A stretch of 38,884 nucleotides of DNA, taken from positions 1-38,884 of the forward strand of contig JAIXUI010000026.1 of the NCBI GenBank assembly GCA_027484125.1. Direction: 5' to 3'. The position numbers and the translations under genes were made by a program. Shown here piece after piece: positions 17,393 to 27,284 of the stretch (within the stretch, counting starts at the first letter, position 1; every line of letters starts with the position of its first letter). Below the pieces are notes generated by a model. It had not been told where the DNA came from and ran no database searches. It worked only from the letters and a program-made list of their open reading frames with translations. Origin of the DNA: Bacteroidota bacterium (GTDB lineage: Bacteria > Bacteroidota > Bacteroidia > UBA7662 > JAIXUI01).

Positions 17393-18433
17393 TCAAATCC
17401 ACCAGAGGTGTTCGTCTTTCACCAACATGGTTGGCTCAGGATTCTCGTCGAACATGCGACCGGTTCCAAGCCCTTGGCGCTCTGTTACGTTTTTAGCTGA
17501 AACCCATTGTGCGATAGCGGCAAGGCCCGGATTCGCTTCCAGTGCAGAAGTGACCCACCAGCCAATATTTCGTTTTCTCGCTTCTTCAATCCAGGCATCG
17601 CTGCCTTTGAAACCACCCAAAAGCGTAGGTTTGAGAATGAGATAGGCCGGTTTTATTTGATCCAACAAAGCCGCTCGGTCTTGGCAGCCTATCAGTGATT
17701 CATCCAAAGCAATAGGAATTGGTGAAAGCATACATAAAGCGGCCAACGCCTTGTTTTCACCGGCCTTCACCGGCTGTTCGATGGAATGAATATCGAATTC
17801 TGCTAAACGGTCCAGCTTACCCATGGCCTCACGCGGGTGAAAAGCGCCGTTGGCATCGAGCCTAATTTCGAGTTCTTCAGCGGGATAGCGTTCTCGAAGT
17901 CTTTTCAACAAAGCACATTCAGCGTCAAAATCGAGGGCTCCTACTTTGAACTTAAGGGCGCGAAAGCCTTCGTTCAGCAGACTTTCCGCTTGACTTTCCA
18001 TGTCCTGAATGCCGCCCATCCAAACCAATCCATTGATAAGAATGCCCTTTCCTGACTGAAACGAACTATCGAACCACTGGAAACGCTTTCCGGTAAGAAA
18101 ATTCAATGCCGCCATTTCTACACCCATGTTCAAGGCAGGCTGGCACTGCAACAACTGTTCGAGTGCCTCCCAATCACGGTTCGAAAACGCCTGTAAAAAA
18201 CCATCGGGGAAAATCCCGGCCTCGGTCCAAGTATCGAGACTTAATCCTGGCAGAGGGGAAGCCTCACCCAGACCTTGATGGTCAAAATCCGGATGACTGA
18301 TGGTCAAAAAAAACGCGGTACGCTGAAGAAGCGTACCGCGTGAAGTAGTCCCAGGACGCCTGAAAGGCATCTGATGAGACTGAATTTGAATGTTTGAACC
18401 TTGGGGAAGAAGCTGAAGAGCCTTAAGACTCAT
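17393..18433 (-). CDS. menC: o-Succinylbenzoate synthase (enolase superfamily), menaquinone pathway
   Basis: 346 residues. It dehydrates SHCHC to o-succinylbenzoate on the way to menaquinone. Enolase-superfamily active-site residues are visible: Lys161/Lys163 in KFKVG, Asp193 in RLDANGAF, Glu219 in SIEQPV, Asp244 in IALDES and Lys268 in LILKPTLLGG. The N-terminal pattern MPFRRPGTTSRG is typical of Bacteroidota MenC. The related alternative, a dipeptide or N-acylamino-acid epimerase, is less likely given that N-terminus. The start overlaps the end of the upstream NYN-CSD gene by 11 bases, implying translational coupling. A strong terminator-like hairpin sits inside codons 31-43. No other men gene is in the window. 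Confidence 0.9.
   Translation of the reverse strand: MSLKALQLLPQGSNIQIQSHQMPFRRPGTTSRGTLLQRTAFFLTISHPDFDHQGLGEASPLPGLSLDTWTEAGIFPDGFLQAFSNRDWEALEQLLQCQPALNMGVEMAALNFLTGKRFQWFDSSFQSGKGILINGLVWMGGIQDMESQAESLLNEGFRALKFKVGALDFDAECALLKRLRERYPAEELEIRLDANGAFHPREAMGKLDRLAEFDIHSIEQPVKAGENKALAALCMLSPIPIALDESLIGCQDRAALLDQIKPAYLILKPTLLGGFKGSDAWIEEARKRNIGWWVTSALEANPGLAAIAQWVSAKNVTERQGLGTGRMFDENPEPTMLVKDEHLWWI
18306..18341 (-). terminator. Intrinsic-terminator structure inside the menC reading frame
   Basis: On the minus strand a perfect 12-base GC-rich stem (ACGCGGTACGCT / AGCGTACCGCGT) with a 5-base loop runs directly into eight T residues. It starts 82 bases after the stop codon of the NYN-CSD gene. 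It lies within codons 31-43 of menC, in sequence that encodes the expected TSRGTLLQRT part of MenC. It therefore looks like either a terminator for the upstream gene or a translation-dependent attenuator of menC. Confidence 0.6.
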
Positions 18434-19487
18434 AAGAATCTAACTCTGTTTCAAGTTCTACTCTTGTAGCTTTTCCGTTTGGTTTTTCAGAGGAAGAAGG
18501 ATCTGGAGCGATGATTACTTCAAATCTTACACGCATACCCACTTCGAGGTCTTGGAAATCCATGGAAGTAAGGTCTGAGAGGTGGAAGAAGAAGTCACCG
18601 GCGGTGGTTTGGATGAAACCGTAGAACTTCTCACGGTGAAGGCGCTTGATGAAGCCGGTTAAAATCTGTCCTGAGTCAGGCATTCCTTCAATGTGTTCCA
18701 ACATACCATCGGCCACAAACTCGTTCACATCACGCTCTTTGAGGCGGTTGTATTCTTCAATACAAGAGGGGCAATAGAACTTACGACCTTTGCGGATGAA
18801 GGCATCGGAGTAAACCATTTTATCGCCTTTATGGAAAGGAGAGCGGCATTCCAAGCGACGCATTTCGATTTTCAGCTCCAGCCTGTCGAGGATATCATCG
18901 AGCCAGATTAAATCGAAATCACGAAGTTTCTGAGCATCCTTACGATCGCGGAATTCAGCGGGGCAGCTTTTCTTAATGGAAGCAATTACAATTCGCTTTC
19001 CGAGCTTACGAACGGCCTGAATTGCCGGGATAAAGTCTTTATCACCCGCCACAATCACCGCAATATCAAAAGCATTGGGAATAGCAGAAAAATACAACAT
19101 TTGAGAAGCGAGGGCAATATCAACGCATTTCTCTGTCGGCTCGAAATCGTCGAACTGATCACGATCCTTTCTACGAAGGCGGCGTCCTCGGTAATCAATG
19201 GGATAAACTTCTACTTCAAAATGGAATTCTTCTCTGAGAAGCTCAAAGAAATCTCTCCTACGTTCAACTAAATGCTCATCTACCATTTGGTAATGAATAG
19301 CATTCGAGCCAAACAACATGGTTCTGACGACATCGCAACCTACACCTGTCTCCTGCTCAATGGCGTTAGCTAATACCTTAGGAAGCTTGCCATAATCGAT
19401 GACAAAGTTTTGTCCAAAAGCTTCGGTGAGGTGTTGTTGGTTGGAATAAAGCCAGGTACCATCAATAAAAAACATCAACTTCAACAT
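18423..19487 (-). CDS. NYN/PIN-like nuclease with Zn-knuckle and cold-shock domain
   Basis: 354 residues. A NYN domain (about 1-200) shows Asp9 in MFFIDGTWLY, Asp123 in CVDIALASQM and Asp149/Asp151 in IVAGDKDFIP, the acidic set of a metal-dependent RNase. A Cys/His segment follows (Cys214, His219, Cys239, Cys242 in RKFYCPSCIEEY). A cold-shock/OB domain comes last (about 276-325), with the RNP-like KFYGFIQT and DFFFHLSDL. The whole reads as an RNA-binding nuclease, LabA-like. It probably acts on cytoplasmic RNA; target unknown. It overlaps menC by 11 bases. The leader carries a long dyad (19536-19564). This layout seems complete and intact, unlike the NYN gene at 6731. Confidence 0.85.
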   Translation of the reverse strand: MLKLMFFIDGTWLYSNQQHLTEAFGQNFVIDYGKLPKVLANAIEQETGVGCDVVRTMLFGSNAIHYQMVDEHLVERRRDFFELLREEFHFEVEVYPIDYRGRRLRRKDRDQFDDFEPTEKCVDIALASQMLYFSAIPNAFDIAVIVAGDKDFIPAIQAVRKLGKRIVIASIKKSCPAEFRDRKDAQKLRDFDLIWLDDILDRLELKIEMRRLECRSPFHKGDKMVYSDAFIRKGRKFYCPSCIEEYNRLKERDVNEFVADGMLEHIEGMPDSGQILTGFIKRLHREKFYGFIQTTAGDFFFHLSDLTSMDFQDLEVGMRVRFEVIIAPDPSSSEKPNGKATRVELETELDSYES

Positions 19488-19535
19488 ATACTAATTTTAA
19501 ATGTGTTGTCACTTAAACTTGCCTGCGTGGTGCAT

Positions 19536-19564
19536 GTACTTGTTCAGAGCTCTGAGATAAGTAC
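19536..19564. promoter_or_regulatory. 29-base dyad in the leader of the NYN-CSD gene
   Basis: GTACTT-GT-TCAGAG and CTCTGA-GAT-AAGTAC are inverted repeats broken only by a 2/3-base internal mismatch; the centre TCAGAGCTCTGA (19544-19555) is a perfect 12-base palindrome. It begins 49 bases upstream of the start. It could be an operator, or an RNA hairpin by which the RNA-binding product controls its own mRNA. Confidence 0.4.
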
Positions 19565-19817
19565 TAGCAAAAAAGCTTAGGCGAAAGTACAATAAAGGAA
19601 CATAAGCGACTATCAAACAATTTTCGTTTTTAAAACCCTTAACGGATTCGAATTCTACCCATTAGTTACGACCAGACATAAAATATAACAAATTCATTAT
19701 AGTAGCGTTTTTTTGCCGGCGGTTAAATTCACTTGATATGAGAAAAACCGGCTCAATTAGCCTGATTTTTAAAACATTATATAATTATTTAAATCCTCAA
19801 AAAGGAAAACAAAATCG

Positions 19818-19879
19818 AGGGCGGCTTTTCAAGTAGAGAAAATTCTCAACCAGTGTGCAGAATCAGCTTTTGCCGCCCT
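19818..19879 (-). terminator. Two-tier hairpin after kbl, possible operon terminator
   Basis: AGGGCGGC (19818-19825) pairs with GCCGCCCT (19872-19879), enclosing an inner hairpin GAGAA/TTCTC. On the minus strand the outer stem is followed by TCGATTTTG, a weak T-tract, about 50 bases after the kbl stop. The rest of the 19488-19929 spacer shows only the leader dyad and AT-rich sequence. Confidence 0.35.
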
Positions 19880-19929
19880 GAAACTTGTTTGAACAATTTA
19901 AGAGTTAGCCACGAATATTTAACAATTGC

Positions 19930-21123
19930 TTAAGCGATAACTTGGAGCTTACGGCCCACTTTGGTGAAAGCTTCAATGGCTTTATCAAGCATTTCGATGC
20001 TGTGGGCTGCTGAAAGCTGCACTCGAATCCTCGCTTGTTCTTTAGGAACTACCGGATAGTAAAAGCCAATCACGTAAACTCCTTCTTTAAGAAGCTCATC
20101 GGCCATCACTTGAGAGAGTTTAGCATCGTACAGCATGATGGGAACGATGGCTGAAGCACCGTCTTTGATGTCAAAACCGGCTGCTTTAATACCTTTTTTG
20201 AAGTGATTAACATTATGCTCTAATTTGTCGCGCAGCTCGGTGGTTTCGCTGAGCATTTTGAACACTTCGATGGAGGCTCCAACGATGGAAGGTGCTAAGG
20301 AGTTAGAAAAAAGGTAGGGGCGAGAACGTTGGCGCAGCATGTCGATAATTTCGCGGCGACCAGTAGTGTATCCACCCATGGCGCCACCTAATGCTTTACC
20401 GAGTGTTCCGGTGATGATGTCAATCTTGCCTAAAACGCCGCATAACTCCGGGGTACCACGACCTGTAGCACCAATAAATCCGGCGGCGTGGCATTCGTCC
20501 ACCATGGTCATAGCTTGATAACGATCGGCTAATTCGCAGATTTTATCCAATTGCGCTACATAACCATCCATAGAGAAAACCCCGTCGGTGACCACCAAGA
20601 TGTGGCGATGGCCGGCAGCTCTGGCTTCTTTCAGTTTAGCTTCCAAATCGGCCATGTCGTTGTTGGCATAGCGGTAGCGGGCCGCTTTGCACAATCTCAC
20701 TCCGTCGATGATGGAAGCGTGGTTCAGTGAATCGGAAATGATGGCATCTTGTTCTCCCAAGAGTGGTTCAAACACGCCTCCATTGGCATCAAATGCCGCA
20801 GCGTATAGGATGGTATCGTCAGTGCCATAAAAGTGAGCGATGGCGCCTTCCAATTCTTTATGTATGTCCTGGGTTCCGCAAATAAAACGAACACTCGACA
20901 TTCCAAAACCGTGGGTGTCGATGGCTTTTTTGGCGGCTTCTATCACCCTTGGGTGTGAGGAAAGTCCGAGGTAGTTATTGGCGCAAAGGTTAATGACTTC
21001 ACTGCCGTCTTCTAAGGTGATGAGGGCATCTTGCGGAGAGGTGATGATGCGTTCTCTTTTGTAGAGACCGGCTTCCTCAATGGCGATTAACTCTTTTTGA
21101 AGGTCTGATTGAAGGGTGTACAT
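19930..21123 (-). CDS. kbl: Glycine C-acetyltransferase (2-amino-3-ketobutyrate CoA ligase)
   Basis: 397 residues, the normal length. A PLP enzyme of the alpha-oxoamine synthase family that splits 2-amino-3-ketobutyrate with CoA to glycine and acetyl-CoA, the second step of threonine breakdown. Visible are NNYLGLSSHPRV near 50, the PLP-stacking region SLNHASIIDG near 132-141, MVDECHAAGF (Asp209, His212), and Lys243 in TGTLGKALGG, which forms the Schiff base. The related serine palmitoyltransferase and KAPA synthase are less likely, given the N-terminal pattern and the near-full-length match to Kbl. No tdh is adjacent. It is the last gene of the minus-strand operon, 16 bases after ansA. Confidence 0.93.
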   Translation of the reverse strand: MYTLQSDLQKELIAIEEAGLYKRERIITSPQDALITLEDGSEVINLCANNYLGLSSHPRVIEAAKKAIDTHGFGMSSVRFICGTQDIHKELEGAIAHFYGTDDTILYAAAFDANGGVFEPLLGEQDAIISDSLNHASIIDGVRLCKAARYRYANNDMADLEAKLKEARAAGHRHILVVTDGVFSMDGYVAQLDKICELADRYQAMTMVDECHAAGFIGATGRGTPELCGVLGKIDIITGTLGKALGGAMGGYTTGRREIIDMLRQRSRPYLFSNSLAPSIVGASIEVFKMLSETTELRDKLEHNVNHFKKGIKAAGFDIKDGASAIVPIMLYDAKLSQVMADELLKEGVYVIGFYYPVVPKEQARIRVQLSAAHSIEMLDKAIEAFTKVGRKLQVIA

Positions 21124-27242: not shown

Positions 27243-27284
27243 ACCAACAAAAAAGCCCCGGTTTCCCGGGGCTTTTTTGTTGGT
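27243..27284. terminator. Bidirectional intrinsic terminator between DUF4403 and T9SS genes
   Basis: A perfect 19-base stem (left arm 27243-27261, right arm 27266-27284) encloses a TTTC loop. The GC core GCCCCGG/CCGGGGC is flanked by A6 on one side and T6 on the other, so it works as a terminator on both strands. It sits 13 bases from each neighbouring stop codon. Confidence 0.92.

Follow-up and report, generated by a model that had tools for sequence, protein, structure and literature searches.

The menC gene of a Bacteroidota bacterium carries the hairpin and the T run of a strong intrinsic terminator within its codons 31-43. This structure is found on the minus strand of a window of 38,884 nt (the whole stretch of DNA that we have analyzed), where menC overlaps the gene that precedes it. 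This first gene of the pair, NYN-CSD, codes for a putative nuclease. Chance codon use does not explain the menC hairpin. Its best explanation is that it is a real Rho-independent terminator, at which the NYN-CSD transcript would end in vivo, inside the next gene. We consider it somewhat probable, judging from the sequence, that this ordinary intrinsic terminator works as an intra-operon attenuator of menC, with read-through set by the proximity of the ribosome.

The minus strand from 18341 to 18306, followed by a G, reads 5'-ACGCGGTACGCT TCTTC AGCGTACCGCGT TTTTTTT G-3'. The two features of an intrinsic terminator are present: A stable G-C rich hairpin and a U-tract directly 3' of its stem. The hairpin (18313..18341, minus strand, menC codons 31-40) has a perfect stem of 12 bp, eight of them G-C, and a loop of 5 nt. 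The T8 run (18306..18313, minus strand) covers the codons for A-F-F-L, and its first T closes the stem. An earlier note on this DNA had described this 12-base stem and the eight T residues, which we can read directly, and had placed them in menC codons 31-43, as borne out by the ORF coordinates. Within menC the stem covers nt 92-120, beginning at offset 92. It is separated by 81 nt from the stop of NYN-CSD, one less than the 82 given in that note. The RNA fold of the hairpin has an energy of -21.8 kcal/mol (z = -7.3), and none of 200 shuffles is equally stable. On the plus strand the palindrome has no T run behind it, so terminator action is possible only in the direction of menC. A search of the window against Rfam matches no family. 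The hairpin stretch is single-copy in the genome, which rules out a repeat element.

The menC gene (17393..18433, minus strand), a vitamin K (menaquinone) gene, codes for an o-succinylbenzoate synthase of 346 amino acids, as indicated by the ORF call, a profile match and alignment. The protein matches TIGR01927 above the cut-off. The hairpin codons align without any indel to the conserved MenC block TSRG.L..[KR]..[FWY][FY][IL] (45 of 58 relatives have the block aligned), therefore they are real coding sequence, as had been proposed from the fit of the residues to the MenC pattern. A wrong menC start is ruled out: The hairpin codons lie within the conserved block, and the next in-frame ATG (M22) also precedes the stem. 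A translated ORF thus runs across the terminator on the same strand (menC codons 31-43), as a translation-dependent attenuator requires. The organism also has menD and menB, near each other on another contig (C28) and away from menC, which makes it plausible that menC belongs to a working pathway. MenC is therefore probably needed, and strong termination would have to leave substantial read-through.

The gene upstream of menC, NYN-CSD (18423..19487, minus strand), was identified by its ORF call and its domains: Both a NYN and a cold-shock domain (CSD) are found in the protein. According to the ORF calls, its end overlaps the start of menC by 11 nt (18423..18433, minus strand), the same overlap as noted before, which may allow translational coupling. 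The promoter of the operon is likely to be in the intergenic stretch 5' of NYN-CSD (19488..19929, minus strand). The Bacteroidota-type promoter motif TANNTTTG has no match on the minus strand from 18433 to 19930. Only weak matches to NYN-CSD are found, in just 5 of 60 relatives, so its pairing with menC looks private to this lineage.

Several comparisons bear on the possibility that the menC hairpin is due to chance. The score that we have used is a sum over pairs (G-C 3, A-T 2, G-T 0.5), and at least six T in eight are required. Weak terminator sites in the neighbourhood are at chance level, with 13 found in a generic scan and 14.2 expected from shuffles. Sites with the score of the menC hairpin are a different matter: There is one in the window, and none in 400 dinucleotide shuffles of it. 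When codons are shuffled synonymously within genes (1,289 ORFs, 1.41 Mb of coding sequence), none of 48 rounds yields a terminator as strong inside a coding sequence: The top score is 28.5, compared with 32 for the menC hairpin. If the peptide is kept fixed and codons are taken at random with the frequencies of the genome, equal strength is reached in about 2-3 of every 100,000 versions. The menC hairpin ranks 20th by energy among the 221 terminator-like hairpins of our genome sample, and the 19 that are more stable all lie outside coding sequences.

The structure is not shared by other menC genes. It is absent from all 56 of the other Bacteroidota menC genes that are readable at the homologous codons, which can form an average of 5.4 of the 12 possible pairs. 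A scan of other menC loci from Bacteroidota (308 kb) finds no early terminator inside a coding sequence, and only 7 intergenic ones. These relatives are distant, with at most 47% protein identity, and among them the structure is not kept as would be expected of a conserved regulatory element. Since the other menC genes do not have the structure, nothing points to long-term selection at the locus. In Runella menC (L042 and L045), the TSRG block is partly self-complementary, with 11 and 9 of 12 pairs when G-U is counted, and has no T run.

Canonical intrinsic terminators are widely used by this genome. Our sample covers 1.88 Mb, 56% of the genome, and contains 168 terminator-like hairpins outside called coding sequences. 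The distances from stop codon to stem peak sharply at 18-24 nt (55 of 155, in L067-L206 plus the window). Distances below 12 nt account for 13%, and this distribution is consistent with ribosomes masking close hairpins. A Rho-less genome which depends on intrinsic terminators is ruled out, as Rho is present. Runaway transcription is not favoured as a background: Few terminators lie less than 12 nt from a stop, and the phyla listed as runaway do not include Bacteroidota (PMC13323073). The window also contains a hairpin (27253-27274) whose tail is T-rich on either strand, likely a bidirectional terminator between convergent genes.

As a rule, a terminator within translated codons would be expected either to be suppressed or to be disfavoured by selection. 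Using our own ORF calls, we have found 12 strong hairpins in the 1.88 Mb that are located in the initial 300 nt of called ORFs, and these cases were curated by hand. Three of them belong to over-extended ORFs. The truA (L107) and rimP (L098) hairpins are located in leaders, judging by the start of the recognisable protein, and the L069 site is directly 3' of a tRNA-Phe. The nine others, menC included, look genuine after curation. They are found in downstream co-directional genes, at 25-214 nt from the preceding co-directional stop, and most of these gene pairs overlap or nearly abut. Besides menC, they correspond to a retropepsin-like gene (L174:19240-19265), ppx/gppA (L147:16973-16998), a gldE/CNNM-type gene (L105:6194-6219), a TPM gene (L177:14641-14666), three genes coding for signal-peptide or membrane proteins (L143:6068-6091, L138:7613-7632 and L174:7862-7886) and one further downstream co-directional gene (L198:1022-1049). 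For four of the nine (menC, ppx, gldE and TPM), the hairpin codons are covered by a profile match.

In a subset of 1.62 Mb, synonymous shuffling leads us to expect about 0.5 early hairpins inside coding sequences with a score of at least 20, and 11 are observed; 8 curated hairpins are left in the same subset when the three artefacts are removed. The excess of early hairpins over shuffles is solid. The gldE and L198 cases are weak evidence, because an equally good hairpin arises in 2-3% of the synonymous codings of their peptides. As a control, the same scan finds three early sites in 450 kb of E. coli, two of them outside annotated genes and one, in ftp, real but weak, therefore we cannot call the rate found here unusual for a bacterium. 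The ftp site of E. coli MG1655 (L218:11492-11515), in the gene after ompC, is a weak terminator-like hairpin in signal-peptide codons. A terminator-like hairpin is also found late in a gene coding for a POT-family transporter, in codons 475-487 on the sense strand (L184:5356-5384).

If the menC hairpin acts as proposed, a polymerase which starts upstream of NYN-CSD would largely produce RNA with NYN-CSD only, ending near 18306. MenC would be made only from the read-through fraction: In the simplest outcome, there would be abundant NYN-CSD message and reduced menC message. This attenuation would apply under any promoter, since a polymerase that makes full-length menC mRNA must cross codons 31-43. 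A ribosome which begins at the overlapping menC start, close behind the polymerase, would keep the stem from forming, so tight coupling of transcription and translation would give more read-through and lagging translation would give less. The overlap of stop and start may pass on a ribosome which is already near the polymerase. From these features we infer that termination occurs in vivo, that a fraction of transcripts reads through and that this fraction depends on translation. The earlier note had already read the hairpin as a translation-dependent attenuator. The strong terminator structure, the true menC codons, the departure from chance, the overlapping gene pair and the stop-to-stem distances of 18-24 nt in this genome agree with that reading; the features of a leader-peptide-type attenuator are absent. 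The longest pairing of a competing antiterminator within 300 nt upstream of the hairpin is 7 nt, and no run of rare or single-amino-acid codons, which could act as control codons, is found at the menC locus.

The dependence on translation may be weak. In E. coli, a terminator placed 30 nt into an ORF is only about 10% less efficient when the ORF is translated, because the newly started ribosome has not yet caught up; terminators within approximately the first 100 nt of an ORF retain most of their efficiency, and suppression is greater for those located deeper in the ORF (Li et al. 2015, PMC4824070). The main rival to a ribosome-tuned attenuator is therefore a nearly constitutive partial terminator, which would set a fixed ratio of NYN-CSD to menC and hardly respond to ribosomes, because one that starts at menC would not yet have reached the polymerase by nt 120. 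The E. coli results point in this direction, as does the lack of both antiterminator and control codons near the hairpin. Nevertheless, the menC stem (nt 92-120) borders on the zone where E. coli terminators escape the effect of the ribosome (PMC4824070), and the stop-start overlap could supply a ribosome already close behind the polymerase. We think a constant brake of this kind rather unlikely. We favour an attenuator tuned by ribosome proximity, on account of the position of the stem at the edge of the protected zone and of the close ribosome which the overlap may hand on.

Other explanations give the hairpin a different role, or no role. It might be a coincidence: A conserved peptide which is readily coded by self-complementary sequence, with ribosomes that always suppress the hairpin, so that it has no effect. 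The absence of the structure from relatives and the 11 of 12 pairs (G-U counted) of the Runella block would fit such a coincidence, which we find improbable given that so few synonymous versions of the peptide (2-3 per 100,000) are as strong and that the further embedded hairpins are well above shuffles. The hairpin might also act mainly after transcription, either as a processing site or by stabilising the 3' end of the NYN-CSD mRNA once this has been processed. Situated 81 nt past the stop codon, a stable hairpin could indeed shield the upstream message, but a stabiliser requires no T run, and a T8 right after the stem is the hallmark of a terminator: A mainly post-transcriptional role is very unlikely. 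It had also been suggested that the NYN-CSD protein could feed into the switch; it would bind the hairpin via its cold-shock domain and govern read-through into menC as a feedback. This has a general plausibility, as both domains are present and CspE-type cold-shock proteins are able to melt terminators (reviewed in PMC7858274). On the other hand, no feature of the sequence indicates a specific interaction, and the CSD scores 28.4 bits, far under the CspE equivalog cut-off of 120, which leaves a very slender chance for such feedback. As for transcriptional slippage, a hairpin followed by eight T could assist it on the T8 run and lead to shortened products. Every frame change of one or two bases ends at 42-50 amino acids with no domain, so the probability that we give to slippage is practically negligible.

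The presence of similar embedded signals in a few other genes suggests a simple way to turn down the second gene of an operon. A wider proposal, which we consider doubtful, is that early-codon terminators in the second genes of tight operons form a genome-wide sensor of the coupling between transcription and translation. If this were true, the downstream gene would be made only when ribosomes keep pace with RNA polymerase. In the case of menC, attenuation would mean that the output of a second gene may depend on a terminator which the ribosome must outrun. A natural terminator of such strength, together with the eight other candidates, provides a concrete operon case which is easily tested. 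Confirmation would provide a signature of intra-operon attenuation at the level of codons, and other Bacteroidota could be searched for it.

Some known systems resemble the menC case. In the E. coli frd-ampC region, the terminator of the upstream gene is found in the leader of the downstream gene. As proposed for menC, one terminator there both ends the message of the first gene and attenuates the second, but the one in frd-ampC is a leader terminator, while that of menC is inside the coding sequence. Leader-peptide attenuators, such as those of pyrBI and the amino-acid operons, share with the proposed mechanism that the proximity of ribosome and polymerase would decide whether the terminator forms. 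They differ in that the menC terminator is within a structural gene, with no leader peptide. Rho-independent terminators within coding sequences have been predicted in many genomes. A terminator of this type within a coding sequence has been tested in E. coli (Li et al. 2015, PMC4824070), where ORF-internal 3' ends have also been mapped (PMC7815308). The likeness to the menC terminator is close: A G-C rich hairpin and a U-tract in a translated ORF, with an effect expected to follow the position of the ribosome. Compared with the tested terminators, the menC case, read from sequence alone, is a natural one: It lies near the beginning of menC, the downstream member of two overlapping genes, and belongs to a small set in a single genome.
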